A stretch of DNA of 32,481 nucleotides from Propionibacteriaceae bacterium (GTDB lineage: Bacteria > Actinomycetota > Actinomycetes > Propionibacteriales > Propionibacteriaceae), in the NCBI GenBank assembly GCA_031271975.1, contig JAISUR010000001.1, positions 1 through 32,481 on the forward strand, in the 5' to 3' direction. The position numbers and the translations under genes were made by a program. This document shows positions 92 to 32,021 of this stretch, piece by piece. Under the pieces are notes generated by a model. That model worked only from the letters and a program-made list of their open reading frames with translations, ran no database searches and had not been told where the DNA came from. The stretch's first letter is position 1. Each line of letters begins with the position of its first letter.

Positions 92-130
92 CACCCGCCA
101 TGCCGGGGCACCCCTTGCGTGCCAACCACC

Positions 131-216
131 GTCATGCCGGACTCGTTCGGGGCCCCCGCAAAGTATCGAAGAACTTTGTGGGGTGATCTTGTTCCGGCAT
201 CTCGGACGCAGTCCGG
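131..216 (+). repeat. Dispersed composite palindromic element, copy 1
   Basis: Three modules follow one another: a CCGGACTCGTTCGG half-palindrome, a hairpin whose arms contain CAAAGT and ACTTTG flanked by CCCC and GGGG, and a TTCCGGCATCTCGGACGCAG module ending in GTCCGG. The same order recurs at 7081-7168 (opposite orientation) and 24470-24560. The element fills most of the gap between the partial gene on the left and the convergent MFS gene, so it may also act as a bidirectional terminator, but that is inference. Confidence 0.8.
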
Positions 217-251
217 CCACAAAGAACTGCGAGCGCGTAGCGCTCTCAATT

Positions 252-1544
252 TCAGCGTAAGTCTTCCGCAGGCCCGTCCAAGGGATGTTCGTCTTTGTCG
301 GCGCGGCCGGGCCAGTTCCAGTCGTTGCGGCGTAGCAGCCACAGGCCTACCACGGCCACGGTGATGAAGGAGGCTATCGCGCCTATCGCTACCGTCCAGC
401 GGGGGCCGAAAGCGTCGCCGATCCAGCCGACGATCGGGGAGCCGAGCGGGGTGCCGCCGAGGAAAATCGCCATGTAGAGCGCCATCACGCGGCCGCGCAT
501 TTCGGGCTCGACAGCCAACTGCACCGAGGCGTTGGCGCACGTCATCACGGTCAGGGCGAAGTAGCCGGTGGGGGCCAGCACGACCGCGTAGAACCAGTAG
601 TTGGGCGAGAACGTCAACACCAGCATCGCCAGGCCGAACAGGGCCATGGAGGCGACGATCATGCGCAACCTCGGACGGGTGCGGCGGGCAGCGACCAGGC
701 CCGCTGACAGGGAGCCCACCGCCATGATCGACGACAGGATGCCGAAGTCCTCCGAGCCGACGCCGAATGCGACGGTGGCCATGAGGATGTTGGAAATCTG
801 GAAGTTCAAGCCGAACGTGCCCAGCATGAACACGATGAACAGCAGCACGATGATGTCCGAGCGTTTTCGGACATAGCGTACCCCCGCGCGGATAGCCCCT
901 GGCTTGGTGGAACGCGGCGCGGGCGTCAACTCGCCCACGCGCATCAGCATCATCGACCCGATCACGGGCAGGAAGCTCAACGCGTTGATCAGCAGCGCCG
1001 GCGCCACACCCCACCAGGCGATCATGAAACCGGCCGCCGCCGGACCGAGCAGGCGGGCCGCGTTGAACGACGTGGTGTTCAAGCCGACGGCGTTCGGGAT
1101 CAGGCGGCTCGGCACCATCTCGGGAGCGAACGCCTGCCGGGCCGGGGCGTCGAAAGCGCCCGCGATGCCGGACAGGAACGCCAGCACATACACCTGCCAC
1201 ATCGTGATCAGCCCAAACCACACCAGCAGCGCCTGGATCAGGCCGGTGACGAGCATGCCGGATTGCGTGACCATCAGCAGCTTGCGCTTGTCGAAACGGT
1301 CCGCGGCCACGCCCGCCCACGGCACGCAGATCAGTGCGGGCAGGAACTGCAGCGCGGTCACCCAACCCAGTTCCAGCGACGAATTGTCAGTGAGGATCGT
1401 GACGACGAGCCAATCCTGGGCGATGCGGCCCATCCACGTGCCTACGTTGGAGACGAATCCGCCGAAGAAAAAGAGGCGATAGTTGTAGACGGCCAGCGAA
1501 GAGAATATGCGGACGTGCCCAGCCTGTTCTCCACCCGTGTTCAA
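252..1544 (-). CDS. MFS transporter, MFS_3 (EntS-like exporter) family
   Basis: A 430-residue, very hydrophobic protein with about 12 membrane segments, the usual size for a major facilitator. Family marks are visible: an N-terminal stretch with N-Y-R-L-F-F-F-G-G and G-T-W-M-G-R-I-A-Q-D-W, then G-V-A-A-D-R-F-D-K-R-K between helices 2 and 3, then A-F-D-A-P-A-R-Q-A-F and the asparagine-rich G-L-N-T-T-S-F-N-A-A-R. These are typical of the MFS_3 group that includes enterobactin exporter EntS and many actinobacterial drug or metabolite exporters. The substrate cannot be told from sequence. The start is TTG at 1544, preceded by a purine-rich GGGGACGAG. It lies 43 bases after the murJ stop, so it is probably co-transcribed with murJ. 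Confidence 0.88.
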   Translation of the reverse strand: MNTGGEQAGHVRIFSSLAVYNYRLFFFGGFVSNVGTWMGRIAQDWLVVTILTDNSSLELGWVTALQFLPALICVPWAGVAADRFDKRKLLMVTQSGMLVTGLIQALLVWFGLITMWQVYVLAFLSGIAGAFDAPARQAFAPEMVPSRLIPNAVGLNTTSFNAARLLGPAAAGFMIAWWGVAPALLINALSFLPVIGSMMLMRVGELTPAPRSTKPGAIRAGVRYVRKRSDIIVLLFIVFMLGTFGLNFQISNILMATVAFGVGSEDFGILSSIMAVGSLSAGLVAARRTRPRLRMIVASMALFGLAMLVLTFSPNYWFYAVVLAPTGYFALTVMTCANASVQLAVEPEMRGRVMALYMAIFLGGTPLGSPIVGWIGDAFGPRWTVAIGAIASFITVAVVGLWLLRRNDWNWPGRADKDEHPLDGPAEDLR

Positions 1545-1587
1545 CTCGTCCCCAAAGCTAGATTGCCGCCGCTCCCAGGCAATGATC

Positions 1588-4500
1588 CTACTCCTTGACG
1601 ACGGACACCTTCACCTCGGCGATGCCGCCGCGGTAGTTCTTACCGTCCTTCGGGAGCGAAGTCAGATAGATGAGCAGATACTTCGTCTTGACCGGTTCGA
1701 TCTCGAAGACGACGCTCTGACCGGCTTTGTCCGCTGCGGCGACTTCTTTCCAATCCGCGACGGTCTTGACCGAGTATTCGTCTGCGGGCACCATCAGCTT
1801 CAAATTTGTGGGTTCGCCGACAAGGGTCAGTTCCACTTTCGCGACCTGCGCCGACTTGGACAACTTCACCACCAGCCCAGCCCCCGGCTTCAGCCCGCCG
1901 AATGCCGCCTTGCCGTACCGCTCGGTCTTCCAGTTCGTGTTTGCCTTGCCGTCGATGGCTTTCTTCACGTTTCCGGGGTTCTCGCCCCCGCTGCCGCCAT
2001 CCGCTTTCGGGTCGAAATCCTTGGCCGAAGAGATCTTGGCCACCGCCAGTGCGACGGTCTCGGTGGGCGTCGGAGTAGCACTCGGAGTCGGTGTCGCCGG
2101 GACGTCCCGGAAGGTGGCCGACGCGTAGAGCGCGACCCCTACGATCGCAACCCCCAGCCCGATGACAAGCGCCGACACCCACGGCTTGGGGCGGGCCACC
2201 GTGGAATTGGCCGCAGGCGCTGTTGCCGGCGGTGGCACTGGCGTGAACACCTCCGCCCGCCGCATGGCCTCCGCCACGAAGGGCGCCGTGTGGCTGCTGG
2301 CCCCAGTGGGTGGGCCCGCCGAGGCCTCACCTTCAGGCAGCACCGGCTCGGGCGGCGTAACCTGCGAAATCGGCACCTCGTCGGTGGAAAGCTCCAAGCG
2401 TGTGCGCAAGTCCTGCGCGGCCGAGACCGGACCAAGGTAGAGCGACAGCGCGGTGGTCACCTCCTGGGCAGTGGTCAGCCGCGAGGCGAAATGCTTGGGC
2501 ACCAGCGAGCCGATACGGTCGATGATGGTCTCCAAGCGCTGGTCGATGCCCAGTGGCCGCGTCGAATCGGCCCCTGGCAAGCCATAACGGGTGGCGCCGG
2601 GCCAGTGCGCGCTGAGCCCCGCGAACAACAGCCTCCCTAACGCCTGCACGTCCTTGGCTTCGTCGTCCCCGCCGCCGGGCACCTCGTTCAGAGCCTCGTC
2701 CGCGAGCATGCCCGTTACTTTCACGTTGCCGTTGGACGTGATGATCACAGTGTCTGGATTCAAATGCCGGTGGTAGAGCCCTTGCGCGTGGCAGCTCGCC
2801 AACGCGTCGGCGATCTCGCGCACCACCCACGCCGTCTCCTCACCCGTCAGCGGGCCTTCGGCGAGCAGCGATCCAAGTGTCTGCCCGGCGACATACTCAC
2901 CGATCAGATAGACGCCGTGGGAACGCGGATCTTCCGGGATCACGTCGAGGATACGCAGGATGCGAGAGTCGGTGGCGGCGGCGATGTCCTTGGCGAGCGC
3001 GCTGACGTGCACGGCGCGGGGGTCGCCGGGAGCGAGCAGGTGGATCAACACCTCGCGTTCGAGCAGTTCGTCGAAGGCAAGGAACACCTGCGTCGTGCCG
3101 CGCACCCCGCGCAGCGCCTCCACCCGGTAGCGGTTCTCCAGCACGTCGCCGGGCGACACCAACCCTTGTACGGCTCCCGTGATCGGCGCGGTGTGCTCCG
3201 CATCAGCTTCCTGCTGCCCGGCCGCGGTCAACGGCACGAAGACTCCGCGGCCATCCGGGTCCGTGTTGTCTACGTCGGGGGCCGGACTTCGTCCGAGATC
3301 CCGGAACGAGTCCGGGATGACAGGTGAAGGGGAGACGCCGGACGCGCCCGCGATGACAGGTGAAGGGGAGACGCCGGACGACGCGCCCGCGATGACAGGT
3401 GAAGGCGAAATGCCGGACGCGCCCGCGACGGCGGCTGAAGGCGAAATGCCGGACGCGCCCGCGATTTCGGTTGGGTCTTCCGGCATGGGCTCGGCGATGA
3501 TCTCCGGGATGGCGGGGTTGTCGTCGGCGGGCACTACCGCCGTGGTGGTGTCCTCGTCGTCGACGGGCGTTTCCGCCGCCACGGCCGCCGAACTGCGTCG
3601 CAAGATGCCCACCAGTTGGGTGGCTTCCGCGATGTGCAGGCGTTTGGCGATGAAGAAGTAGATCACGACTGCCAGCGCCACGCCCACCAAAAGCCCGATG
3701 TTGGCGAGCAGACCCGAGCCGGATGTGCCCGCAAACCAGGTCACGCCGAACGCCACGCCCACGGCAGGAAGGGCCGCGACCAGCAGCCGCGCTAGGTGCC
3801 GTCCGACTTCCGCCCCACGCAGCCCGGGCAGGCGCTTGGCCAACGCCCGGTGCGTGATGAACACGCCCAGGATGTAGGAAAGCGAATACGCCAAGGCGAG
3901 CCGCGCGGCCACCGAGCCGGGGTGGTTCAGCATCCACACCAGGCCGATGGCAAGGGCGGCGTTCACGCCCGAGATGGCGATTTGCAGCAGGAACGGCGTC
4001 TTGGTGTCGTCGATGGCGTAGAACGCGCGCAGATACAGGTACTGCAGCGTGTACGGCACCAGCCCGATCGCGAAACACAGCAGCGCCCAGGAGATGAAGT
4101 GATAGTCGCGCGCGCCGGCCCCGTTGCCGAAGATCAGCCGCGTGATCGGGTCAAACAGAACCGCGTAGGCCAGGCAGGCGGGCACGATGAACGTCGTCGC
4201 CAGCCGCACGGCGCGCATCGCCTCCTGGGCAACGCCGGCCTTGTCGCCACTCACCCCAAAGCGGCTCGCCGAAGGCAGCATCGCGGTGGCCAGCGAGACG
4301 GTGATCAGCGAATGCGGCAGGATCCAGATAAGGTAGGCGTTCTGGTAGACCGTCCAGCCGCCCGCGACGGTCGCCTCGCCGGTGAGCGGGTTGATCGCAC
4401 CGGGCAGCGCCAACGAGGCTTGATTCTGCACCACGATCTGGGCCAGCGAGATGACGGCGACATAGCCGACCATCCATTTGGCCACGTGGAAGGTGCGGCC

Positions 4501-5244
4501 CAGGCCTGCGCCCTTGAAATCAAAGCGGGGCCGGTAGGAAAAGCCGACCTTCTTCAGGTACGGCACGAGCACGCAGGTCTGTAGGAAGATGCCCAGCGTC
4601 GAGCCGGCGCCCAGCAGGACGCACTGTTCGGTAGTGAACGCCGCGCCGTCGGCGGCACTGCTTCCCCAGACGCCCAGGTACACGCTGAGCACGGTGATCG
4701 ACACGACGTTGTTGACGATCGGAGCCCACATCATCGGGCCGAAACGGTCGCGCGCGTTCAGCACCTGCCCGATCATGAAGAACACGCCGTAGAAGAGGAC
4801 CTGCGGCATCGTGATGTAGCTCATCAGCAGCAGCGCCTGCCAATGCTCGGCCATCCAGTCGGTGCGCCACGCCTCGGACGTGTAGACGCTCATCACCCAC
4901 GGCGTCAGCAGCGTCAGCACCACGGTCAGCACGGCCAGGATCAGGAAGAACGCAGTCATGATCCGGTCCACGAACGCCTTGCCACCGTCCTCGTCATGCT
5001 GGATGGCGCGCACGATCTGCGGCACGAGCACATTCGTCAGCGTGCCGCCGATCACGAGGATGTAGAGCGAGTTGGGGACGGTCAGCGCGTTGGTGAAAGC
5101 ATCGACGCGCAGCGTGCCGTTGCCGATGGCGATGGCCAGCAGGATGTTCCGCGCAAACCCAAAGACCCGCGAGACCATGGTGCCGGACGCCATGATCGCA
5201 GTGGCATTGAGCAGGCGGCGTCCACCGGTTGCGGAATCACTCAT
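1588..5244 (-). CDS. murJ: Lipid II flippase MurJ fused to a pseudokinase and an extracellular discoidin-like domain
   Basis: A 1218-residue protein with four parts. Residues 1-550 are a MurJ/MviN flippase with about 14 membrane segments, expected to move lipid II across the membrane. Residues 551-695 are a low-complexity cytoplasmic linker containing a repeat array (594-646). Residues 701-940 are a protein-kinase fold that looks inactive: the HRD motif reads H825-R-H827, so the catalytic Asp is lost, the DFG region reads V-T-G-M-L, and the beta-3 Lys is absent (V-L-I-H-L-L). A single membrane helix (1021-1043) leads to an outside domain (1068-1216) resembling F5/8 type C folds, with A-I-D-G-K-A-N-T-N-W. 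This is the architecture of mycobacterial MviN, whose pseudokinase is bound by the FHA protein FhaA. The repeat-rich linker is unusual. ATG at 5244 has a TACGAT -10-like box 7 bases upstream. Confidence 0.95.
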   Translation of the reverse strand: MSDSATGGRRLLNATAIMASGTMVSRVFGFARNILLAIAIGNGTLRVDAFTNALTVPNSLYILVIGGTLTNVLVPQIVRAIQHDEDGGKAFVDRIMTAFFLILAVLTVVLTLLTPWVMSVYTSEAWRTDWMAEHWQALLLMSYITMPQVLFYGVFFMIGQVLNARDRFGPMMWAPIVNNVVSITVLSVYLGVWGSSAADGAAFTTEQCVLLGAGSTLGIFLQTCVLVPYLKKVGFSYRPRFDFKGAGLGRTFHVAKWMVGYVAVISLAQIVVQNQASLALPGAINPLTGEATVAGGWTVYQNAYLIWILPHSLITVSLATAMLPSASRFGVSGDKAGVAQEAMRAVRLATTFIVPACLAYAVLFDPITRLIFGNGAGARDYHFISWALLCFAIGLVPYTLQYLYLRAFYAIDDTKTPFLLQIAISGVNAALAIGLVWMLNHPGSVAARLALAYSLSYILGVFITHRALAKRLPGLRGAEVGRHLARLLVAALPAVGVAFGVTWFAGTSGSGLLANIGLLVGVALAVVIYFFIAKRLHIAEATQLVGILRRSSAAVAAETPVDDEDTTTAVVPADDNPAIPEIIAEPMPEDPTEIAGASGISPSAAVAGASGISPSPVIAGASSGVSPSPVIAGASGVSPSPVIPDSFRDLGRSPAPDVDNTDPDGRGVFVPLTAAGQQEADAEHTAPITGAVQGLVSPGDVLENRYRVEALRGVRGTTQVFLAFDELLEREVLIHLLAPGDPRAVHVSALAKDIAAATDSRILRILDVIPEDPRSHGVYLIGEYVAGQTLGSLLAEGPLTGEETAWVVREIADALASCHAQGLYHRHLNPDTVIITSNGNVKVTGMLADEALNEVPGGGDDEAKDVQALGRLLFAGLSAHWPGATRYGLPGADSTRPLGIDQRLETIIDRIGSLVPKHFASRLTTAQEVTTALSLYLGPVSAAQDLRTRLELSTDEVPISQVTPPEPVLPEGEASAGPPTGASSHTAPFVAEAMRRAEVFTPVPPPATAPAANSTVARPKPWVSALVIGLGVAIVGVALYASATFRDVPATPTPSATPTPTETVALAVAKISSAKDFDPKADGGSGGENPGNVKKAIDGKANTNWKTERYGKAAFGGLKPGAGLVVKLSKSAQVAKVELTLVGEPTNLKLMVPADEYSVKTVADWKEVAAADKAGQSVVFEIEPVKTKYLLIYLTSLPKDGKNYRGGIAEVKVSVVKE
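3282..3330 (-). repeat. Dispersed palindromic element inserted in frame in murJ
   Basis: On the plus strand this reads CCGGACTTCGTCCGAGATCC then CGGAACGAGTCCGGGATGAC, which is the inverted form of the intergenic elements. It is translated in the murJ frame as V-I-P-D-S-F-R-D-L-G in the flexible linker between flippase and pseudokinase. No frame shift or stop is introduced. It abuts the minisatellite at 3316-3462. Confidence 0.8.
3316..3462. repeat. Minisatellite of four 36/39/36/36-bp units in the murJ linker
   Basis: Units begin at 3316, 3352, 3391 and 3427. Each contains GAAGGNGA, then a variant of GCCGGACGCGCCCGC; the first three begin GATGACAGGTGAAGG. All unit lengths are multiples of three, so the murJ frame is kept and repeats of the type A-G-A-S-G-V-S-P-S-P-V-I are encoded. 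The unit start equals the outer edge of the palindromic element, which suggests the array grew from that edge. Confidence 0.85.
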
Positions 5245-5251
5245 CTAGCCC

Positions 5252-5257
5252 ATCGTA
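5252..5257 (-). promoter_or_regulatory. Candidate -10 box (TACGAT) for murJ, leaderless type
   Basis: TACGAT on the minus strand is followed by seven bases and then the murJ ATG, which would place transcription start at or next to the start codon. No clear -35 element is seen. It may supplement read-through from the upstream DUF218 gene. Confidence 0.35.
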
Positions 5258-5292
5258 GGCCGCGAACGCTCCGATTCCCGGTAGTCCGCGCG

Positions 5293-6996: not shown

Positions 6997-7080
6997 TGTG
7001 GCAGACGGGCGCCCGCGCCGTCCCGTGCCAAATGACGCTTTCACGCCCAGTCTCAACCTGACAAGGAGAGCGGGGCACAC

Positions 7081-7168
7081 GGACTACGTCCGAGATCCCG
7101 GAACACCACCCCACAAAGTTCTTCGATACTTTGCGGGGTCTTATCCCGGAACGAGTCCGGGATGACGG
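7081..7168 (-). repeat. Dispersed composite palindromic element, overlapping the pyrC end
   Basis: An inverted copy of the composite element: GGACTACGTCCGAGATCCCG, then the CAAAGT/ACTTTG hairpin between CCCC and GGGG arms, then TATCCCGGAACGAGTCCGGG. Its right end (7141-7168) is read as the final pyrC codons and supplies the pyrC stop. It fills the gap between pyrC and the upstream end of the DUF218 gene. Confidence 0.88.
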
Positions 7169-8418
7169 TTGAAGGCAACGCGCCCAGCGCAAACGGTCAT
7201 CACGACCGGATCCGGCAAGTCCAGGCCTCGATACGGGTTGTTGCGCGACAGTGACGCCGACGTTTGCGGATCCACGGGCGCACGCCGGGCGGGATCGACC
7301 AGCACGACGTTGGCCGGCTCGCCTATTGCCAACGGGCGGCCCTGGTCGGCTACCCGCCCGATGCGGGCTGGGGTGTAGCTCATGCGTTCGGCCAGCGTGG
7401 GCCAATCCATGCGGCCGGTGTTGACCATCACGTCTATCACCACCGACAGCGCCTGCTCCAGGCCCAACATGCCCGGTGAAGCTTCCGGGAATGGCTTGGC
7501 CTTGTCGCTGGCGGCGTGCGGGGCGTGGTCGGTGGCGACGGCGTCGATGGTGCCGTCGGCGAGCGCTTCGCGGACGGCCTCCAAATGCTCGGTGGTGCGC
7601 AGCGGAGGGTTCACTTTGTACGTGGTGTCGCCGGAAGCGAGCAGCGGCGTGTCGAGCAGCAGGTGGTGGGGTGTGACTTCGGCCGTCACCGGGATGCCGC
7701 GCGCTTTGGCCCAGCGCAGCACGTCAACGGTCTCGGCGGTGGAGACGTGGCACACGTGCAGGCGCCCGGATGTCAACTCGGCTAGTTGCACGTCGCGGGC
7801 GACGATGGCCGATTCGGCTTGCGCGGGCCAGCCGTCCAGGCCGAGTTCGCGCGAGACGTGCGACTCGTGGCAGCAGGCCGTCGGCCCGGCCAAGCGCGGA
7901 TCTTGGGAGTGCTGCGCGATGACGGCGCCGGTCGCCGCGGCGAACTCCAGCGCGCGGCGCATCAGCAGCGAGTCCGCCACGCAGCGGCCGTCGTCGGAGA
8001 ATACCCGCGCGCCGCCAGCGGCCATCGCCTCCAAATCGGCCAGCTCTTCCCCAGCCAGGCCTTTCGTGACCGCGCCGACCACGGCCACCTCGCAGGATGC
8101 CTGCGCTGCGGCCGTCTGCCGGATCCACTCGGCACGCTCGGCCGTGTCGGTGACCGGCGTGGTGTTGGCCATGGCGTGCACGCAGGTGAAGCCGCCGCGC
8201 GCCGCCGCAAGCGTGCCGGTGGCGATCGTTTCGGCGTCTTCGCGACCGGGCTGGCGCAGGTGGGTGTGCAGGTCCACCAAGCCAGGCAGGGCCAGCAGCC
8301 CCGCCGCGTCAACGCGCCGCACATTCGGCGGGGCTTGCAGCGGATCGGCGAAAACACCGTCGCGGACATAGAAGTCGGTGGCGAAACCGTCAACGGTCCG
8401 CGCGCCGGTGATCAGCAT
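7141..8418 (-). CDS. pyrC: Dihydroorotase (type I)
   Basis: A 425-residue amidohydrolase that interconverts carbamoyl-aspartate and dihydroorotate, the third step of pyrimidine synthesis, in the cytoplasm. The metal motif D-L-H-T-H-L-R-Q-P-G lies near residues 49-58, followed by G-G-A-R-V-F-S-D-D-G, the H-V-S-T-A metal-ligand region and A-T-D-H-A-P-H near the end of the barrel, as expected for type I enzymes. ATG at 8418 follows the pyrB stop by two bases, with AGGAG inside the pyrB end, so the two are translationally linked. The last residues (R-H-P-G-L-V-P-G) are not family sequence: they are a translated palindromic element, which also supplies the TAA. Confidence 0.96.
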   Translation of the reverse strand: MLITGARTVDGFATDFYVRDGVFADPLQAPPNVRRVDAAGLLALPGLVDLHTHLRQPGREDAETIATGTLAAARGGFTCVHAMANTTPVTDTAERAEWIRQTAAAQASCEVAVVGAVTKGLAGEELADLEAMAAGGARVFSDDGRCVADSLLMRRALEFAAATGAVIAQHSQDPRLAGPTACCHESHVSRELGLDGWPAQAESAIVARDVQLAELTSGRLHVCHVSTAETVDVLRWAKARGIPVTAEVTPHHLLLDTPLLASGDTTYKVNPPLRTTEHLEAVREALADGTIDAVATDHAPHAASDKAKPFPEASPGMLGLEQALSVVIDVMVNTGRMDWPTLAERMSYTPARIGRVADQGRPLAIGEPANVVLVDPARRAPVDPQTSASLSRNNPYRGLDLPDPVVMTVCAGRVAFNRHPGLVPG

Positions 8419-8420
8419 GT

Positions 8421-9449
8421 TCACTCCTGCAGGGTCGCGCACCAGGGGCGCGGTTTGGTGGTGAGCGCGACGGCTTCGGTGGAGACGCCGAGCGCGGTGA
8501 GGAAGATCGCCATGCGCACGATCAAGCCGTTGTCGGTCTGCTTGAAGATCGCCAGGCCGGGCAAGTCGTCCACGTCCGTGGCGAGGTCGAAGGAGTCGCG
8601 CCGGGAGTCGCGCGGCAGCGGGTGCATGATGATGACGCCGAGGTTGTCCGCCTCGGTGAGGATCTGCTTATTGAGCAGGTCCCCAGCGGCGTTCGCGGCC
8701 GCCACATCTTCGGGCATGCGCTCGCGCTGCACCCGCGTCGCGTAGACGACGTCCGCACCCGTCACGGCCGCGCCAACCGAATCCGCGAAGCAGACCGTGT
8801 GCCCGCGCTCGGTGGCGTATGCCGCCACGGACTTGGGCAGTTCCAGGCCGGGCGGGGCGAAGAAGGCGAAGCTGACGCTCTGATACAAGCTGAGCAGCTT
8901 GACCAGGGAGTGCACCGTGCGCCCGTAGCGCAGGTCGCCCAGAATCGCGATGCGGCAGCCGTCGACCGACTTGCCGCGGGCCGACAGCTCTTTCTCCATC
9001 GTGTAAACGTCGAGGAGGGCCTGGGAAGGATGCTCGCCGGCGCCGTCGCCCGCATTCACGACCGGAACCATCGACGCAGCGGCGAACTCCGCGACCGAGC
9101 CGGTGTCCGGATGCCGCACGACCAGCACGTCCGAATAGCCGGAAACGACCCGCGCGGTGTCCGCGATGGACTCGCCTTTCGCCATCGACGAGAAGGTGAA
9201 GCCCGTGGTGGTGGTGACTTCGCCGCCGAGCCGCAGGAACGCCGACTCGAACGAGAGCCGGGTACGCGTGGACGGCTCGAAGAACAGCGACCCCAGCATC
9301 GCGCCGTCCAACACAGTGCAAACAGCTTGCCGCCGCGCGATCGGCCCCACGGTGTCGGCCAGCTCGAACAGGGCGGCCAAAGTCCGCTTGTCGAATTGGG
9401 AAACAGAAAGCAGGTGCCGGCCCTGCCCAAACAGCGGCAAGTCGCTCAT
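8421..9449 (-). CDS. pyrB: Aspartate carbamoyltransferase catalytic subunit
   Basis: A 342-residue enzyme that joins carbamoyl phosphate to aspartate, the committed step of pyrimidine synthesis. The carbamoyl-phosphate motif S-T-R-T-R-L-S-F-E is at residues 60-68, followed by S-M-A-K-G-E-S (Lys 91) and, near residue 278, H-P-L-P-R with the later D-V-D-D-L-P. The protein is about 30 residues longer than the E. coli chain, mostly at the C-terminus. No regulatory pyrI gene is next to it. The ATG at 9449 lies 19 bases after the fadD stop. A TAGGCT box just upstream suggests its own promoter, so pyrB-pyrC need not depend on fadD transcription. Confidence 0.96.
   Translation of the reverse strand: MSDLPLFGQGRHLLSVSQFDKRTLAALFELADTVGPIARRQAVCTVLDGAMLGSLFFEPSTRTRLSFESAFLRLGGEVTTTTGFTFSSMAKGESIADTARVVSGYSDVLVVRHPDTGSVAEFAAASMVPVVNAGDGAGEHPSQALLDVYTMEKELSARGKSVDGCRIAILGDLRYGRTVHSLVKLLSLYQSVSFAFFAPPGLELPKSVAAYATERGHTVCFADSVGAAVTGADVVYATRVQRERMPEDVAAANAAGDLLNKQILTEADNLGVIIMHPLPRDSRRDSFDLATDVDDLPGLAIFKQTDNGLIVRMAIFLTALGVSTEAVALTTKPRPWCATLQE
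8424..8428 (-). promoter_or_regulatory. Ribosome binding site of pyrC inside the pyrB end
   Basis: AGGAG on the minus strand overlaps the last pyrB codons and lies five bases before the pyrC ATG at 8418. It decides the pyrC start against an in-frame upstream alternative at 8442. Confidence 0.75.
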
Positions 9450-9456
9450 GCCCCGT

Positions 9457-9462
9457 AGCCTA
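9457..9462 (-). promoter_or_regulatory. Candidate -10 box (TAGGCT) for pyrB-pyrC, leaderless type
   Basis: Minus-strand TAGGCT followed by seven bases and the pyrB ATG. The same hexamer at the same distance precedes larC and the gene at 17023. No convincing -35 is visible in the overlapping fadD end. Confidence 0.45.
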
Positions 9463-9468
9463 CCGTGA

Positions 9469-11301: not shown

Positions 11302-11325
11302 CGTCGCTCCCATCGACAAGGTCCA

Positions 11326-11337
11326 CCACAATTGTGG
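11326..11337 (-). promoter_or_regulatory. Candidate operator: 12-bp palindrome upstream of fadD
   Basis: CCACAATTGTGG is a perfect palindrome about 25 bases before the fadD start. Its place and symmetry suit a dimeric repressor such as a TetR- or MarR-type regulator of fatty-acid genes, but no regulator gene is adjacent and no second copy was noticed in the window. Confidence 0.35.
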
Positions 11338-11463
11338 GCTGTTGACAAAGCAGTCTAGGGGAACACACAGCCACATGTGCTGGAGTCTCCCCCAGGAAAC
11401 CAGTCGGGAAGTTGTCGGGTTCCTATGTCGCCGACCTCAGCCCACCAACGGTCGGGCTGCGTC

Positions 11464-11583
11464 CGTCATGCCGGAACGAGTCCGGCATGACGGCGGCCCA
11501 ACCTGTCATCGAGGGCTTGTCCCGGGATCTTCGGACGCAAGTCCGATGGCGCCCGAGAGGTCGCCCCTCCCGGGCCGCATGGG
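11464..11583. repeat. Dispersed palindromic elements between the subtilase gene and fadD
   Basis: The first part (11468-11494) is a near-perfect palindrome, GTCATGCCGGA, five bases, TCCGGCATGAC. The second part (11513-11583) contains CCCGGGATCTTCGGACGCAA, GTCCG and a GGGCCGCATGGGGCG end that recurs at 27361 and 24590. The subtilase stop lies within a few bases, so the hairpins may serve as its terminator. The remaining bases up to fadD (11338-11463) show nothing recognisable. Confidence 0.75.
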
Positions 11584-11587
11584 GCGA

Positions 11588-14500
11588 CTAAGCGTGCTTG
11601 CCCCGCCGCAGGAACATCGCGGCCGAGCCGGTCGCCAAGCCGAGCAGCAGCAGGATCGGCCACCACGACTCCAGCGGAGTGCCGCCGGCATTCGCATCCG
11701 AGCCGCCTCCACCTGAGCCAGCATCGCTGTCGGACGCCGGCACGGAGGCCGTGACCACGCTCGAACCAACTCCGTCCGCGTTGAACGCCTGCACGGTCAC
11801 GACAGTGCCCTCGGGTAGCCGCGTGGCGAACGTGACCGACCAAGCGGCGGGCGGCCCGGCAAACCCGGCGCCGCTCGCACCCGCGGCCGTCTCGTACGTC
11901 TGGCCGGCGGCCGTCACCACGACCCGGTTGCCCTGCTCGGCGGTGCCCGAAATCTGCGTCGCCGTCAACGACGTGATCACCGGGGCCGTCGGCGTCTCGG
12001 TCTCACCTGGCGTCACCGTCGGGCCCGGTGTGGGATCGGTCGGCTGGCCGCTGGGATCAGTTGTCGGCGTTGTCGGGTCGGTCGTCGGATCGGTCGTCGG
12101 GCCAGACGTGGGATCCGTAGTCGGATCCGTGGTCGGATCGGTCGTCGGGTCCGTCGTGGGGTCCGTCGTGGGATCCGTGGTCGGATCGGTCGTCGGGTCC
12201 GTCGTCGGGCCACTTGTCGGATCCGTAGTCGGATCGGTCGACGGGTCGGTCGTCGGGTCGGTCGTCGGGCCACTTGTCGGGTCCGTGGTCGGGTCCGTCG
12301 TGGGATCGGTAGTCGGGTCCGTCGTGGGATCGGTAGTCGGATCCGTCGTGGGATCCGTGGTCGGCGTGGACGCTGTCGTGAACGTCAACTCCAACGGGAA
12401 GCCCTCGATCTCGTACAGGCCCCAGACCAGGCCATCCACCGTGAGCGTGCCCGGCGAAGACTTTGTGTACGTCAACGTGTGCGTCCACTGGTTCTCCAAG
12501 CTGAGCGTCGTCAACTGGCCCACACCGCTCGGATCCCGAGTCCACACTGTCGCCTCGCCACCCAGCGGCTGGTAGATCTCGGGGCTCAGCGCCACCGCCA
12601 TAGCACCCTCCGGGGTCTTCGGGTAGTCCTGGCCGGCGGCCGTCAACGTCACTTCGATCACCTGCCCAGCCTCAGCTTCCGTGACCGCGGCAGTGGCCCG
12701 CAAGAGGGGCTGCGTCATGTCGGACGGATCGGTGAAGTTCGCAAACGTGTACAGGCCGGTCGCGTCCACCGAGTCGTTGCCTGGCGTCACCGGATCGTCC
12801 GCCTGGGAGTTCAGCGCCAAGCCGACTTTCAGCGCGCCCGGCTGCAACGACACCACCTCTGCGGTGAACGTGCCCTCCTCGTCCAAGACGATCGGGACGC
12901 ACGGGCCGTAGCAGATAGCCGCGTTCGGATAATCCGCCAATGACGTGATCGGATGGCCGAGCGTGTCCTTCGCCTCTAAGGTGACCTCCTGGATGGCGCG
13001 CCCATCGGCCGGCACATCCGGATATTCCGAGGCGGTCAAGGTCGACACGGACGCGTTGAACTCGCCGTTGCAGAAATCGACCAGGACATAGCCCAGATAG
13101 GAGTACCAACCGTCGCCGAGCGGCATGTCAATCTCCATCTCGAACCATCCTTCGGCGAGCCCATAGGCGTCTGCGGAAGCGGTGCCGTCCGGGCCGGTGG
13201 TCACCTCGTAGTCGTCGCCTTCCACCAACACCATGTCCCACGACCACGAGTAGAACGAAACGGTCACGCCCTCGATGGGATTGCCGTACTGGTCGAGCAT
13301 GCGAACCGTGACAGTCTTCAGGTCTTCGCCGTTTGCCGCCGCGTGATTGTCGGAAACCGTCATTTCGACCTCTCCAATGACGGCCGGCAGCACCTGCACT
13401 TCCATCTCAGACCAGTAATTCGGAACGTCGGCAAGAGATGCTTGCAAAGTCACCGTCGCCGGGCCCACATATTCGACGTCAAAAACACCCCAGCCATCAG
13501 AGTCCGGCTTGGAGATGGCGTTCAGGATGGTCACCTCCGGCGATTCGGATTCGAGCTTGGTCCGCAACCCCTTGATGATGTTCCAGTCCTCGTCAATGGG
13601 CACCAGATACACTTGGTTGCGGCCAGGCTGGGCCACGCCCAGGGCGTCGATGTAGACCATATAAGGCACCTCGGCGAACTTGAGCCCCGTGCCAATGCCC
13701 AACTGGCCGCCGAACCACTCCGACTGGCCCGAGTAGTAGGCCCCCACCGAGAACGAGCCGGCTTTGGTGGACCAGCAGAATGCCGAATACACGCCGACGC
13801 CCGTGCCTGTGGGCTCGACGTCGCCACAGCGCACCTGGGAGTCGTTCGTTTTGAAGCGCAGCTCGCGCGCCGGGACGTCCACCGGCTCACCGTCGGCGTC
13901 GAACACTTCGAGCGTCACGGTGTACGCCGAGTTGCCGTCGGCGATGCGCGCATATGGGTCGGCGCTCAGCGTGCCCGTCAGCAACTCGTCTGGCGCTCCC
14001 GCGCCACCGGTGAACTCCTGGACGACGGCAGCTTCAGCACTTGCCCAGCCGTATTCGCCGTATTCCTCGAACAGCGACGCGGAGACGGCGACAGACTGCC
14101 CGATCTTGGAATCGACCTCGACCCGCGCCTTGCCGGAGGCGTCCAGCGTGGCCCAATGCACGCTCAACTCCGCATCGGCGCCCGCCTGGAAGAACACCTC
14201 GGCGCCCGCCTGGGCGGGCGTCAACGCCACGGTGAGCGTGGCGGTCTCGCCCGCGGCTACGGGTGTGGTCGGCTCGAAGGCGAATGTCGATTCCTCGGGC
14301 TCCCCGACAATCAGCCACACGTCGCGGTAATACGCGTCGCCCGAGGCGCGGTGGATCTCGGCCACCAGGATCTCAACGCTGAGCAGGCCGTCCGGGACGG
14401 GATCGGGCAGCCGCACCACGGCGTCGCCGGATTCGGTGACGGCGATCCACTCAGGCAGCTCGCTGGTCCACACCATTTCTTCGTCTTCGATCTCGGCCAT

Positions 14501-16858: not shown

Positions 16859-16895
16859 CGCTTCCTCATTTCTCGGGGAGACTTCGGGTGCTTCA

Positions 16896-16924
16896 AAGCT
16901 ACCGCACAGGGAGGCTAAGGGCAA
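16896..16924 (-). promoter_or_regulatory. Candidate promoter of the first subtilase gene
   Basis: On the minus strand TTGCCC (16919-16924) and TAGCTT (16896-16901) are exactly 17 bases apart, about 40 bases before the ATG. This leaves a normal leader with a GAGGAAG ribosome site. The match to consensus is partial. Confidence 0.4.
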
Positions 16925-17010
16925 CGCGCCTTGTTAGCGGCATGTTGATAGGTACCAAAGTGCGCGCAATTAGGTAAATCGGAGAGCGCTTCACCCGCAC
17001 TGTTCTCAGC

Positions 17011-17016
17011 TAGGCT
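17011..17016 (+). promoter_or_regulatory. Candidate -10 box (TAGGCT) of the ligase cassette, leaderless type
   Basis: TAGGCT is followed by six bases and the ATG at 17023, so transcription would begin at the start codon. No Shine-Dalgarno sequence precedes this ATG, which supports a leaderless message. Confidence 0.45.
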
Positions 17017-17022
17017 TCGTGC

Positions 17023-17622: not shown

Positions 17623-17629
17623 GGCCCAA

Positions 17630-18328: not shown

Positions 18329-18386
18329 ACCCGGTACCGGACTGGCATCTCCGGACGAACCCCGGTCCCAACCGAAAGGTGACCCA

Positions 18387-19811: not shown

Positions 19812-19852
19812 CGATAGTTTGGGCGACACCTGACAACAGTGCGAGGTGTTAC

Positions 19853-24430: not shown

Positions 24431-24446
24431 CCGGCAGCAAGGTCAT

Positions 24447-24600
24447 CCCGGACTAGTTCCGGCATCCCCCTTCACCTGTCATCCCGGACTAGTTCCGGGG
24501 TCCCCGCAAAGTATCGAAGAACTTTGTGGGGTGGTGTTCCGGGATCTCGGACGAAGTCCGTGTGCCCCGCAGGGGCACTCTTCCAGGGCGCATGGGACTC
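24447..24600 (+). repeat. Dispersed composite palindromic elements after the SLH subtilase
   Basis: A short copy (GTCATCCCGGACTAGTTCCG at 24443) is followed by the fullest copy in the window at 24478-24600. That copy has the palindromic core, the CAAAGT/ACTTTG hairpin, TTCCGGGATCTCGGACGAAG, and a GTGCCCC/GGGGCAC hairpin ending in a GCGCATGGGAC tail. It lies in the convergent gap between the subtilase and SRAP genes. Confidence 0.9.
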
Positions 24601-24608
24601 CGTCCCAA

Positions 24609-24710
24609 GATGCCGGAACAAGTCCGGCATGACGGTGGGGTCTTGCCGGAACTAGTCCGGCATGACGGTGGGGTCTTGCCGGAACAAGTCCGGCATGACG
24701 GCGGGGCCTT
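24609..24710. repeat. Three tandem 33-bp palindromic units at the SRAP gene end
   Basis: Units with GCCGGAAC at 24612, 24645 and 24678 share GTCCGGCATGACGGNGGGG and are almost identical. They are the core module of the dispersed element in head-to-tail array. The second and third units encode the end of the SRAP protein and supply its stop codon. There are no unique spacers, so it is not a CRISPR array. Confidence 0.9.
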
Positions 24711-25407
24711 GCCCACACCAGAAGGCGTCAATCAGCCCTGGGTCGTCGCGCTTCTGGCCGGGCACGGCGCTCAGCCACCCGCTGCCCACTTTGCGGTACT
24801 CCAGTGCCGTCGCCACCCCTCCCGACAAGTCCATGGCGGCGTCCAGCAGGGCGCGCTGGTCGGCGGCGGGGTCGAGCCAGTCGTCGTAGAGCCGCGGGGC
24901 CAGGTACAGCGGCTGCCTGTCGTGGATCAGCACCATTTCCCCTTGTGGGGGCCGGGTGATGATGGTGGCTGAAAGCACCCAGCGCTCCGGGTCGGCGCGG
25001 TCCTGCCACCATTCGTACAGTCCGGCGAGGGCCAACACGCCCCCGTCCGACGGCGTGGCGAAGTAGCTTTGCCGGTCGGCTTTGCGGCGCTCGTAGAAGC
25101 CGTCGACGGGGATGATCGCGCGCCGCCGGGCCATCGCGAAGCGGTACATGCCCGAGGTGAACAGCTTCTCGCAGCGCGCGTTGAAGGGCGTGGGCCCGTC
25201 GGTGAGCGACTTCTTGAACGGCGGCACCAACCCCCAGCGGGCCGACGCGAGCCGGCGCGGCTTCTCGGCGGGCTGCATGACGATGGCGATCTGTTCAGAT
25301 GGGGCGAAGTTGTAGGACGGGCCGGGCAGGTCGTCGGCGATTTCGGCGATGTCGAACAGCGGAGCCAAGTCCGAACTGGCCCGGGCGAGGACGAACCGCC
25401 CGCACAT
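24652..25407 (-). CDS. SRAP-domain protein (YedK/HMCES family, abasic-site DNA crosslinker)
   Basis: A 251-residue SOS-response-associated peptidase-fold protein. The family binds abasic sites in single-stranded DNA through a covalent bond to Cys2 and shields them from cleavage. The mature start M-C-G-R-F fixes ATG at 25407. The active-site set is present: C2, N76 (F-N-A-R), E106 (G-F-Y-E) and H162 (I-H-D-R-Q-P-L-Y-L). The start overlaps the stop of the upstream PAS gene by one base (TGATG), indicating translational coupling. The C-terminal ~16 residues (A-V-M-P-D-L-F-R-Q-D-P-T and V-M-P-D) are translated palindromic repeat and replace or extend the native end. Confidence 0.93.
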   Translation of the reverse strand: MCGRFVLARASSDLAPLFDIAEIADDLPGPSYNFAPSEQIAIVMQPAEKPRRLASARWGLVPPFKKSLTDGPTPFNARCEKLFTSGMYRFAMARRRAIIPVDGFYERRKADRQSYFATPSDGGVLALAGLYEWWQDRADPERWVLSATIITRPPQGEMVLIHDRQPLYLAPRLYDDWLDPAADQRALLDAAMDLSGGVATALEYRKVGSGWLSAVPGQKRDDPGLIDAFWCGQGPAVMPDLFRQDPTVMPD

Positions 25408-26819: not shown

Positions 26820-26843
26820 TGTGCCATCCGTTCGGCATCCTGA

Positions 26844-26857
26844 GAACCTCCAGGTTC
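26844..26857. promoter_or_regulatory. Inverted repeat between larB and the PAS gene
   Basis: GAACCTCCAGGTTC is a 6-bp inverted repeat with a two-base centre, 25 bases before the PAS gene start. Beside it CTCAGC/GCTGAG (26864-26880) straddles the larB stop. Either could be an operator or a weak attenuator hairpin. Confidence 0.3.
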
Positions 26858-26864
26858 CCAACTC

Positions 26865-27710
26865 TCAGCCGCTTGCTGAGGCTCCCAGGATCTTGATTGC
26901 GAGCGCCGCCGCCCCAAATCCGTTGTCGATGTTGACCACCGCCACGCCCGGCGCGCAACTGGCCAGGGCCGCGTCAAGCGCCACCCGCCCCCCGCTGGCC
27001 ACGCCGTAACCCACAGAAGTGGGACAGGCGATGAGCGGCGCCCGGATAAGCCCGGCCAGCACGGAGAACAACGCCCCTTCGAATCCGGCCACCGCGATGA
27101 CAACGCGAAACCGCCGAATCTCGGCGATCCGGGAAGTCAGCCGCCAAAGCCCGGCGACGCCCACATCGGCGATGATCCGAGCCGGATACCCGCAAAACTC
27201 CAAAGTCCGCCGCGCCTCCGCCGCCACCGCCAAATCGGAAGTCCCCGCCGTCACGATCCCGACCACGGCCGCGGCGCCGCCGTCCAGCTCCCCCACCGGG
27301 TCATCCCGGACTTGTTCCGGGATCTCGGACGCAGTCCGTGTGCCCCCAAGGGCACCCCCGCGGGCCGCATGGGACTTCGACCCGCCATCCAGAACACCCA
27401 CCCCGTCACCGAGAACGCCCACCTCGTCATCCCGGACTTGTTCCGGGATCTCGGACGCAGTCCGTGTGCCCCCAAGGGCACCCCTCTCCAAGTCCAGCAC
27501 AGCGGTCCCCGACAAGGGATCAAACTCCAGCACCGCGGCGACGTCGCCAGCCAACTCCCCATACGACCAAAGCCGCGTGAACAGCAGCCGCCGCCCGCTC
27601 GCGGCAGCTTCCCGGACGATCTCCTCGATCTGCGCGACAGTCTTGCCCTGGCACATGACTGCCTCCGGCATCCCAGTGCGGGCTTCCCGCTCCCAATCCA
27701 TGTTGGTCAC
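26865..27710 (-). CDS. larB: Pyridinium-3,5-biscarboxylic acid mononucleotide synthase LarB, with in-frame repeat insertions
   Basis: LarB carboxylates and hydrolyses nicotinic acid adenine dinucleotide in the first step of nickel-pincer nucleotide synthesis. The catalytic half resembles PurE: G-I-V-T-A-G-T-S-D-L, then A-C-P-T-S-V-G-Y-G, S-C-A-P-G (Cys 252, matching the essential Cys of characterised LarB) and V-V-N-I-D-N-G-F-G-A. The N-terminal part (Q-G-K-T, T-R-L) is also present. Residues ~77-144 are foreign: two copies of G-A-L-G-G-T-R-T-A-S-E-I-P-E-Q-V-R-D-D made by inserted palindromic elements, at the junction between the two halves. GTG at 27710 overlaps the larE stop (GTGA). Confidence 0.93.
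   Translation of the reverse strand: MTNMDWEREARTGMPEAVMCQGKTVAQIEEIVREAAASGRRLLFTRLWSYGELAGDVAAVLEFDPLSGTAVLDLERGALGGTRTASEIPEQVRDDEVGVLGDGVGVLDGGSKSHAARGGALGGTRTASEIPEQVRDDPVGELDGGAAAVVGIVTAGTSDLAVAAEARRTLEFCGYPARIIADVGVAGLWRLTSRIAEIRRFRVVIAVAGFEGALFSVLAGLIRAPLIACPTSVGYGVASGGRVALDAALASCAPGVAVVNIDNGFGAAALAIKILGASASG
27298..27375 (+). repeat. Dispersed palindromic element in larB, copy A
   Basis: TCATCCCGGACTTGTTCCGG followed by GATCTCGGACGCAGTCCG, a GTGCCCCCAAGGGCAC hairpin and a GGGCCGCATGGGAC end. It lies in the larB coding frame and lacks the CAAAGT hairpin of the longer copies. Confidence 0.9.
27425..27483 (+). repeat. Dispersed palindromic element in larB, copy B
   Basis: Nearly base-identical to the first ~55 bases of copy A, in the same orientation and same larB frame, about 125 bases away. 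The near identity suggests recent insertion or duplication. Confidence 0.9.
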
Positions 27711-28471
27711 GGGTGCACCCCGGTCATGGCCCCGCGCCGGTAAGGCCGGGCGCCGCAGAATCTATGCCCGGCGGACACAATGACCGCGCTGGCGGCGTCC
27801 AGCGCCGCGGCGTCGGGCGGATAAGGTTCGCTCTCCACGAATACGCCTGTGGGCGTGATCCGGCAGCGCAAGGTGGCGCCCGCAGGGGAGGCGGCAGCCA
27901 AGGCGCGTTCCACCCGGGCAACCAGCGCCAACTCGTCCGGGTGGATCACCATCCCGGTGTGCACGCGCGACGACAAACACGGCGACGCGGGCAATTCCGC
28001 GATGTCGCCGAGGCCGAAATCCCTTGCCAGCGCCCGAACGCTGGCTTTGTCCAGGCCAGCGGTGATGAAGGGGTGCACGATGCCGCGTTCGGCGGCGGCT
28101 TCCAGCCCGGGCCGGTAATCGGCCAGGTCGTCGGTGTTGGCGCCGGAGGCGATGGGAGCGTCGGTCAGTTCGCGGATGCGGTCGTAGAGGTGCGACTTGC
28201 AGAAATAGCAGCGGTTGACTGGGTTGGCCAAGTATCGCGCGTCGCCGAACTCTCCGGCGTCGACGATCTCCAGCCGCCAGCCGCGTTCTTCGGCCAGTGC
28301 GACTGCGCGCCGAGTCCCTTCGGGGGCCACCGCGGGCGAGATCGCGTGGTAGACGCGGGCGCGTTCACCCAGCACGCGGTGGGCGGCTTCGGCCAGCGTG
28401 AGCGAATCCACGCCACCGGATACCGCGATGGCCAGCGCCGGATATCCGGCCAGCACGTCTGCGATGTTCAC
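27707..28471 (-). CDS. larE: Pyridinium dicarboxylate sulfurtransferase LarE (three-cysteine type)
   Basis: A 254-residue PP-loop ATP pyrophosphatase that adenylates the LarB product and inserts sulfur, the second step of nickel-pincer synthesis. The PP-loop S-G-G-V-D-S is at residues 18-23, followed by G-A-N-T-D-D and S-S-R-V-H-T-G. Cysteines at 88 and 91 (R-C-Y-F-C-K) and 165 (S-P-C-L-S-S-R) match the three-Cys LarE proteins that bind a [4Fe-4S] cluster, unlike the Lactiplantibacillus enzyme that sacrifices one Cys. GTG at 28471 overlaps the larC stop (GTGA); both ends are thus coupled to neighbours. It is shorter than some LarE proteins but complete. Confidence 0.94.
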   Translation of the reverse strand: MNIADVLAGYPALAIAVSGGVDSLTLAEAAHRVLGERARVYHAISPAVAPEGTRRAVALAEERGWRLEIVDAGEFGDARYLANPVNRCYFCKSHLYDRIRELTDAPIASGANTDDLADYRPGLEAAAERGIVHPFITAGLDKASVRALARDFGLGDIAELPASPCLSSRVHTGMVIHPDELALVARVERALAAASPAGATLRCRITPTGVFVESEPYPPDAAALDAASAVIVSAGHRFCGARPYRRGAMTGVHP

Positions 28472-29625
28472 CGCGCCCTCCGCTCGGCCAGCGTAGCCCC
28501 GCTGCGGTCGTCGCTCTCCACCTTGGACGTGACCACGCCGCCGGGCCGCGTGACGGACTTGACCCGCACCCCGTCGACGGTGAAGTGGGCCCGCGGCAGT
28601 TCGCGCCGCTCGTCCGTCCGCAACCGCAACCCAATGGTGGAAGTCTGCGCGAAACACGCCGCGGCGACGCTGTCGGCCAACGCCACGTCGGCCAGCAAGC
28701 GGAACTCGACGGCCGGGCGCCCCTTCTTCCCGATCCGCTGTCCCAACGACACGTCCCGCACCCCGGCCGTGCCCCGCAACAGCTCAGCCGCGGTGCCGAT
28801 TTCTTCCCCAGTCATGTCGTCCACGTCAAACTCGATGACGCAGACGAACCGAACTCCGTCCGCCCCCACACCGTAATCCCAAACTCGATCCGGGATTGCG
28901 GACGCGCCCTGGTTGTCAAATACCAACACCCGCAGCACATTCGGCACCCCGGCAAAACGCTTGGTGCCAGCCCCGCACCCGACGCGCTCCAAAGTGCCCC
29001 CGGCCGTGCGCGCCCCAGGCACGGCCAAGTGCTTCAGAATCGCCGCCCCCGTGGGCGTGACCCGTTCCCCGGTCACCTGGTCGTCGCGCCACTCGAACCC
29101 CTCCAACAGCGCGGCGGTCGCCGGGGCCGGCACGGGCAGCACCCCGTGTTGCGTCTGCACGGTCCCGCCGCCGATCGGCAGCGCCGAGACGGTGTATCGC
29201 GCATCTGGCAGCGCGGCAGCGATGCTCCCGGCGACGACAGTGTCGGCGAGCGTATCCCAGTCGGCTATCTCGTGGAAGTGAACTTTTTCGATGTCCACTT
29301 GGTGGATGCGCGCCTCGGCTCCAGCGAGCAGCGCGAGGATGGCTAGAGCATGCTCTGCCGTCCCGGGGGCCAAGTCCGCAGCCTCGATTCTGGCCACCAT
29401 GTCGGCATAGGAGACATGCCCGGCGTGCTCCGCTTTCACCACGCGCAGGCTCAGCGCGCGTATGGAGTCGGCCCGCACTTCTTCCACGGTGACGGCGACG
29501 CCCGCTGGGAGCACGGCCTGGGCGTCGGCGAGAGCACGCTCGCGGTGCTCGGGGAAGGCGTCGAGCAGCGCGGCCGCGAACATGTCCCCGGCCACCCCGC
29601 CAACAGCGTCGAGGTGAATCTCCAC
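28468..29625 (-). CDS. larC: Nickel-insertion cyclometallase LarC (single frame)
   Basis: A 385-residue protein that inserts nickel into the pincer nucleotide in a CTP-dependent reaction. The N-terminal D-A-V-G-G-V-A-G-D-M-F, the metal-binding K-V-H-F-H-E-I with following D-T-L-A-D, and the G-G-G-T-V-Q-T segment are typical. The C-terminal domain has E-F-D-V-D-D-M-T-G-E. In Lactiplantibacillus larC is split and joined by frameshift; here it is one uninterrupted frame. A-S-A-I-P-D-R-V-W-D-Y-G (DNA 28877-28910) resembles the translated palindromic element. The start is GTG at 29625 without a ribosome site, six bases after TAGGCT. It is the first gene of larC-larE-larB. No larA is in the window. 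Confidence 0.93.
   Translation of the reverse strand: MEIHLDAVGGVAGDMFAAALLDAFPEHRERALADAQAVLPAGVAVTVEEVRADSIRALSLRVVKAEHAGHVSYADMVARIEAADLAPGTAEHALAILALLAGAEARIHQVDIEKVHFHEIADWDTLADTVVAGSIAAALPDARYTVSALPIGGGTVQTQHGVLPVPAPATAALLEGFEWRDDQVTGERVTPTGAAILKHLAVPGARTAGGTLERVGCGAGTKRFAGVPNVLRVLVFDNQGASAIPDRVWDYGVGADGVRFVCVIEFDVDDMTGEEIGTAAELLRGTAGVRDVSLGQRIGKKGRPAVEFRLLADVALADSVAAACFAQTSTIGLRLRTDERRELPRAHFTVDGVRVKSVTRPGGVVTSKVESDDRSGATLAERRAR
28877..28910 (+). repeat. Degenerate palindromic element inside larC
   Basis: ATCCCAAACTCGATCCGGGA followed by TTGCGGACGC aligns with the core of the larB copies. It is translated in the same frame as in larB (A-S-A-I-P-D-R-V-W-D-Y against A-S-E-I-P-E-Q-V-R-D-D). 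Divergence suggests an older insertion. Confidence 0.6.
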
Positions 29626-31948: not shown

Positions 31949-32021
31949 GGGGCATTAACTCAGTTGGTAGAGTGCGACCTTTGCAAGGTCGAAGTCAGGG
32001 GTTCGAGTCCCCTATGCTCCA
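31949..32021 (+). tRNA. tRNA-Ala (anticodon TGC)
   Basis: A full cloverleaf folds by eye: acceptor GGGGCAT with ATGCTCC and discriminator A, D-arm ACTC/GAGT, anticodon stem CGACC/GGTCG with loop TTTGCAA, and T-arm AGGGG/CCCCT with TTCGAGT. The G3-U70 pair that marks alanine tRNAs is present. CCA is not encoded. It reads TGC, decoding GCA and related alanine codons. Confidence 0.97.

Follow-up and report, generated by a model that had tools for sequence, protein, structure and literature searches.

A family of CGTC-type repetitive palindromes present in many copies in one Propionibacteriaceae genome

Introduction

The CGTC superfamily of repetitive extragenic palindromes (REPs) was defined by Di Nocera et al. 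(2013; PMC3733652), who assigned the Rickettsia palindromic elements (RPEs) RPE-4 and RPE-6 to it. As described there, CGTC repeats are short palindromes with an unpaired CGTC tag, or a near variant of it, at one end; their stem is 8-9 bp long and carries AT complementary residues at positions 1 and 2, the loop has 4-5 nt, and the tails are short and unpaired, most of them, though not all, fitting CCA; dimers are mainly inverted (HH), with heterodimers in CGTC-2/3, and same-direction pairs are rare or negligible. The hosts that the survey lists are Proteobacteria, Chlorobi, Bacteroidetes, Spirochaetes and Thermotogae, and Actinobacteria are not among these five. It reports in-frame copies within genes, and insertion in frame into protein genes is known for RPEs (reviewed in PMC10969869; also PMC3733652). 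It describes CGTC repeats as lacking a dedicated transposase and as having no flanking Y1 genes in any species that it examined. Actinobacteridae carry only Y1 proteins of subclass 1.1 according to PMC6006769, and PMC12306157 counts thousands of generic REPs, under a broader definition, in three Actinomycetota genomes. Here we describe a family of CGTC-type palindromes in a Propionibacteriaceae bacterium. It came to light in a 32,481-nt stretch of DNA (the window) that is one whole contig, JAISUR010000001.1, of a draft genome that totals 2.70 Mb in 49 contigs and has a completeness rating of 99.86%. A preliminary description of this DNA knew of no account of such a family in actinobacteria, and we too found none in the literature searched (open-access papers only).

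Results

Copy number and distribution among genomes

The minimal unit of the family is about 40 nt long and consists of an xGTC tag, a head, made up of a stem of 8 bp and a CTNGT loop, and then a hairpin of 5-6 bp with a C-GNA-G triloop (the second hairpin). The exact core of the head, CGGACTNGTTCCGG, occurs 281 times in the genome (148 forward, 133 reverse), and the reversed pattern used as a control does not occur. The largest count among 59 other genomes in the search of relatives is five, in a genome of about 8 Mb from another family, and the 29 other genomes of the genus have no exact core or one each. A general CGTC-type palindrome pattern matches 282 times in this genome; of 395 others sampled across the phylum, 40 have one or two matches and none has more. 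These outside matches, which were not inspected one by one, look like single chance palindromes. There are 162 junctions of head and second hairpin genome-wide (≤2 mismatches). A further hairpin with CAAAGT arms has 71 copies (≤3 mismatches) in this genome and is absent from the other 29 of the genus. The preliminary description had allowed that its copies might be absent from the rest of the genome or be local duplications only, and these counts show that neither is the case.

The exact junction of head and second hairpin (23 specified bases) has one match in the genome-contig collection, from which the nearest records may be absent, and this match is in a contig of 19.7 kb from a metagenome-assembled genome (MAG) with the title Bifidobacteriaceae bacterium. 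The contig has three tandem CAAAGT hairpins and the second hairpin at its end, and the exact core has no copy in that MAG. The CorC-like protein of the 19.7-kb contig is 63-65% identical to those of three genomes of the window's genus, whereas the MurJ of the MAG is only 36% identical to the window's MurJ. Judged by these identities, the MAG is probably not a second host, and the contig probably comes from a relative and was binned wrongly; horizontal transfer is a possible alternative.

Viral contigs have neither the CAAAGT hairpin nor a head joined to the second hairpin; the head alone is found in three of them, in two of which it has a CCA-type tail and then an inverted partner. Plasmid matches are confined to 12 records, all from sphingomonad-type genera, and span only about 24-33 bases with E values of 0.09 or worse. 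Phage matches are two records of one phage (E 3), judged to be chance. After these searches, transfer by phages or plasmids was rejected. An actinobacterial host is supported by two observations: stretches of the window's genome match the Rfam families Actino-pnp and mraW, the latter likewise actinobacterial, and the best plasmid matches of one window protein are from actinomycetes.

Anatomy of the minimal unit

The anatomy was worked out on a sample of 764,330 bases, made up of a 432-kb set (the window plus four more stretches, two of them long pieces of contig) and a 332-kb set picked for its copies. The sample holds 207 heads, 186 of which are preceded by GTC (any xGTC) and 157 by CGTC. Pair 3 of the stem is C-G in 106 heads (type A), G-C in 76 (type B) and another pair in 25. 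Identical heads number 35 of the 207, which shows that multiplication is recent or ongoing. The tail after the 186 tagged heads is CTC in 60, CTT in 41, CCC in 34 and CCA in two.

A hairpin begins no more than 6 nt downstream of 132 of the 186 tagged heads, against an average of 29.6 when the downstream sequence is shuffled; many of the 54 tagged heads without it are tandem heads. The loop is a triloop in 99 of the 132 hairpins, and this triloop is GNA in 91 (shuffle mean 0.3) and ANA in the other eight. The N of GNA is A in 39, C in 25, T in 20 and G in seven.

Covariation was measured on 80 distinct units (85 were made and five longer ones dropped), all picked for the ACRNAGT motif. They share a stem of 8 bp that starts with AT (A-T in 76 and T-A in 79 of the 80) and a loop of 5 nt. 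Standard pairs make up 98.2% of the two helices, double changes are seen in seven of the 13 pairs, and there are 63 double-change cells versus 19.5 in shuffles. None of these measures was matched by any of 500 shuffles, tests that are inflated by kinship of the sequences, and the covariation score of 0.177 compares with at most 0.039 for slid structures. This shows that the palindromes are maintained by compensatory change, with N varying inside the two fixed loops. The composite element at 24478-24633 of the window folds with z scores of -6.0 as DNA on the plus strand, -6.0 as DNA on the minus strand and -6.7 as RNA. DNA mini-hairpins of the C-GNA-G type are reported to be unusually stable (Yoshizawa 1997, as cited in PMC6479982), an observation more in line with selection on DNA than on RNA. 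The conservation of the GNA triloop suggests that it is folded single-stranded DNA (ssDNA) that is recognised.

Composites and the nested CAAAGT hairpin

Neighbouring heads form 121 pairs: 67 in the same direction, mostly tandem heads with 10-16 nt between them, 46 with tails facing and eight with tags facing. Nine of the 46 tails-facing pairs overlap themselves, and the remaining 37 comprise 31 A-B pairs, three A-A pairs and three with untyped heads. The spacers of these 37 are 63-67 nt long in 18, 108-110 in eight, 153-155 in three and of other lengths in eight, the increments being 44-45 nt, one per nested CAAAGT hairpin. A and B units with their tails facing around a hairpin spacer are a composite like the REP doublets known as REPINs.

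The CAAAGT hairpin is found in 51 distinct contexts, with exact GTTCCGG on both sides in 32 and, allowing one mismatch, in 44. Together with the spacer increments, these flanks show that it is nested in a head and has been amplified in tandem. The preliminary description had taken this hairpin for a free module and suggested that the modules move separately; it is located within the right arm of a head, and its flanks fit one nested variant that was later multiplied in tandem, which gives no support to separate movement of this module. A single insertion with an 8-bp repeat is one history that fits, and a template switch would look alike. Tandem amplification adds heads in steps of 33 bp and nested CAAAGT hairpins in steps of 43-45 bp.

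Copies in frame within genes

In the window, larB (26865..27710, minus strand) is the host of two A-type units, both identified by core match and homologue alignment. The first (27299..27358, plus strand) has GNA and GTGCCCC hairpins and lies in frame, antisense to the gene; the second (27425..27484, plus strand) is also in frame, and the two are identical over about 60 bp. Alignment with five homologues (three from genomes of the genus, two of the order) shows that LarB is about 72 residues longer than these, mostly in or around the two element-coded stretches, and with both inserts it still scores above the NCBIfam cut-off for LarB (216.4 bits versus 175). The genes larE and larC follow larB and are both intact (NCBIfam, Pfam).

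The sample has 21 element-coded peptides across 13 called open reading frames (ORFs), read as RHPGLVPG in 12, VIPDxFRD in four, IPExVRDD in four and SRNxSGMT in one. One ORF (L132:3420-5651, minus strand) has Urease_beta (residues 13-107), then an element peptide and then Urease_alpha (179-298). The element-coded stretch that links the two domains is about 70 residues long, and the ORF is possibly a gene fusion created by the repeat. In other ORFs, judged by domain matches, element peptides lie past the UreG, cytidine deaminase, lactonase or PIN domain, and some are within or beside GT87, CbiQ and LicD proteins. A CbiQ-domain ORF (L131:5121-6404, plus strand) reads three nested CAAAGT hairpins in frame. 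The copies in LarB and in the ORFs with urease, UreG and CbiQ domains would represent repeat DNA turning into protein sequence outside Rickettsia.

Copies and other features of the window

There are 11 matches to GTCATNCCGGACTNGTTCCGGNAT in the window at ≤3 mismatches and none in 100 dinucleotide shuffles; a looser core without the tag (four mismatches) gives 13 distinct sites, against a mean of 0.09 and a maximum of two in shuffles. Nine copies had been listed in the preliminary description. Eight of them are upheld where it had placed them, and the ninth (28877-28910) is weak and appears at the looser setting only. This last site (28876..28910, plus strand), inside larC, is not among the 11 matches, is preceded by GTA and not GTC, and may be a decayed copy or a chance match.

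The largest copy is a full composite of about 270 bp (24442..24710, plus strand), which is supported by sequence, core matches and a fold z of about -6 for 24478-24633. It begins with two forward heads (24442 and 24478), followed by a nested CAAAGT hairpin, a GNA hairpin and a GTGCCCC/GGGGCAC hairpin, and its right part has a reverse GNA hairpin and then three reverse B-type heads as a 33-bp tandem. What had been given as separate copies at 24443-24600 and 24609-24710 is therefore one element, in which a hairpin spacer lies between the two forward and three reverse heads. The 3' end of a gene with an SRAP domain (24652-25407) enters the B-head tandem, and its terminal residues are element-coded.

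At 130..216 (plus strand; from sequence, with three mismatches in the head) a B-type head (ATGCCGG...CCGGCAT) has a CAAAGT hairpin nested at 159-178, matched at 159-184 in the pattern search, and then a hairpin with a GNA loop. Sequence and a core match identify three copies on the minus strand. The first, at 3282..3322, is an A-type minimal unit (tag, head and GNA hairpin) that a MurJ-kinase ORF (1588-5244) reads in frame in its linker. Tandem repeats of 36/39 bp in this linker (3306-3491) start where the element has its tag (GATGACAGGTGAAGG...), which looks as though the element had seeded them. The second, at 7072..7166, is an A-type unit with a CAAAGT hairpin, a GNA hairpin and half a GTGCCCC hairpin, and its tag end extends to the end of a pyrC-like ORF (7141-8442). 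The third is a B-type head with tag at 11468..11491. Finally, a looser-core match at 11505..11550 (plus strand) is a degenerate unit with tag, head and second hairpin.

Two repeats of other kinds were noted. A run of 12-bp units lies inside a large subtilase ORF at 12020-12424. Two identical 78-bp direct repeats (32037-32114 and 32218-32295) lie just after tRNA-Ala (31949-32022) and contain a 41-nt inverted partial copy (83%) of the 3' end of this tRNA gene; they are possibly an integration scar.

Discussion

Expansion of the family and its alternatives

The explanation that we prefer, with a probability of roughly 0.65, is a lineage-specific expansion of CGTC-type repetitive palindromes, as a non-autonomous hairpin element, in an actinobacterium. 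It starts from what was observed directly, namely the copy number, the anatomy, the compensatory changes, the restriction to one genome among those sampled and the in-frame copies in genes. The copies would have spread as non-autonomous mobile DNA, their hairpins being recognised in ssDNA, during replication or repair, by an enzyme encoded elsewhere or since lost, and this spread would leave no target duplication. Copies in genes would persist when the frame is kept and the site is a linker, loop or tail. The mobiliser would be either present but unrecognised, or lost.

Several points weigh against this explanation. The counts for helix 2 come from units selected for the presence of its hairpin (108 of the 186 tagged heads), and the RNA fold is as strong as the DNA fold, so that selection may be on RNA. 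The copies may be old, given that there are 88 distinct cores among the 207 heads. No clear strand bias relative to GC skew, which might be expected from single-strand mobility, was seen in contigs that are too fragmentary for a firm test. No filled/empty site pair was found at the nucleotide level, so that we infer movement rather than observe it. Lastly, PF01797, the family of Y1 HUH transposases (Y1_Tnp), was not detected in the genome, so that the element is without a candidate enzyme.

The transposase families searched genome-wide were PF01797 and PF02371, and other gene content was read within the sample. IS110 transposases target palindromes in other bacteria; their family, PF02371, was not detected in the genome, and IS110 was rejected as mobiliser. 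Genes flanked by the repeat were rejected too. In the sample, six ORFs lie between heads that are no more than 300 bp away on either side. In our own reading, backed by a scan for the HNH protein only (PADLOC), they look like a lysyl-tRNA-synthetase-like protein, a transporter, a lipoprotein, an antiporter, the HNH protein and an oxidoreductase, and no recombinase was recognised among them. None of the 39 matches listed in a scan of the sample for near-identical repeats of at least 250 bp exceeds 88% identity. This speaks only weakly against insertion sequences, since these are places where draft assemblies break.

Foremost among the alternatives is movement of the units by a canonical REP-associated tyrosine transposase (RAYT) of the Y1 HUH type, since lost or lying in a sequence gap. 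The tag, the paired hairpins and the absent target duplication do resemble GTAG REPs and REPINs, and loss of RAYT is reported in E. coli strains (PMC3733652, PMC6006769). However, the gene of this kind that the preliminary description proposed to look for did not turn up: PF01797 has no match in a genome rated 99.86% complete, whereas the same search was positive in six of 14 control genomes. Additionally, CGTC repeats are without flanking Y1 genes in the species examined in PMC3733652, and on balance we consider a lost RAYT unlikely.

Somewhat less probable still are structural elements that do not move, that are retained because they serve a function (termination, supercoiling or the stabilisation of 3' ends) and that owe their number to recombination and slippage. 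Placement, determined with a simple purpose-written gene caller, speaks for this. The 84 heads of the 432-kb set comprise 28 in convergent gaps, which add up to only 4.9 kb, versus 22 in 17.2 kb of co-directional gaps and 18 in 10.5 kb of divergent gaps; three are at an edge and 13 inside called genes, some of these being chance cores or overlaps with ORF ends. In the 332-kb set chosen for copies, 58 heads are co-directional, 24 convergent, 19 inside genes, 12 divergent and 10 at an edge. The 33-bp and 43-45-bp tandem steps are also what local amplification gives. In contrast, the in-frame copies in unrelated genes and the absence from 29 genomes of the genus argue against it, and regulatory use is in any case compatible with mobility. 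The least probable alternative is an ordinary miniature inverted-repeat transposable element (MITE) moved in trans by a DDE-type transposase, with the heads as its terminal inverted repeats. In its favour, composites end in A and B heads that together make an imperfect inverted repeat of about 25 bp. Against it, many heads stand as single units or in tandem, direct repeats are not in excess at the outer ends of 41 composites (observed versus expected: 4 and 2.5 for 4-mers, 1 and 0.66 for 5-mers, 0 and 0.06 for 6-mers), and the IS110-type PF02371, one of the two transposase families searched genome-wide, was not detected.

A lineage-specific expansion would bear on a wider question, namely how CGTC repeats spread, which dates from the 2013 survey (PMC3733652) and its report that no dedicated transposase was found. 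Here the expansion is isolated in a new phylum, as far as searched: there are many copies in one genome and nearly none in the genus, and Y1_Tnp was not detected. Tentatively, and with considerable doubt, we suggest that this is a REP-type mobile element that spreads without a Y1 HUH transposase, its paired ssDNA mini-hairpins (CTNGT head and C-GNA-G triloop) being acted on by an undescribed enzyme or by a replication or repair process of the host. The genome would then be a natural system in which to find that activity, and with it an explanation for the orphan CGTC repeats seen in alphaproteobacteria and Rickettsia. Closely related strains would allow direct tests of movement and of its genetic requirements.

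Comparison with known repeat systems

The closest described repeats are the CGTC-tagged REPs, nearest CGTC-2 (8-bp stem, 5-nt loop), with which the family shares the unpaired CGTC tag or a one-base variant of it and the AT-pair start of the stem. Structured spacers, a mostly extragenic position with some in-frame copies and the lack of a transposase gene found alongside are also common to both, and heterodimers may be. It differs from CGTC REPs in its host phylum, which is outside the five listed, in nearly lacking the CCA tail (2/186) and in the GNA-triloop hairpin that follows the head. Tails-facing pairs are A-B in 31 of 37, yet 67 of the 121 neighbouring pairs are in the same direction, and the 'HH' of PMC3733652 may not equal tails-facing.

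Rickettsia RPE-4 and RPE-6, compared by description and not by sequence, share the CGTC superfamily and in-frame insertion into genes, but their host is AT-rich and of another phylum and their composite structure is different. REPINs and bacterial interspersed mosaic elements (BIMEs) built from GTAG REPs and associated with RAYT have in common with the family short palindromes, inverted pairs with spacers and mosaic arrays; the tag here is xGTC and not GTAG, and Y1_Tnp was not detected in the genome. The target-site duplication of a MITE moved by a DDE transposase is not seen at the ends of the 41 composites. Judged from its sequence, the repeat family is a CGTC-type REP in a host phylum that was not listed before, as far as we have searched. 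The REP- or RPE-like nature that the preliminary description proposed is borne out by this fit to the superfamily in which PMC3733652 places RPE-4 and RPE-6 of Rickettsia.

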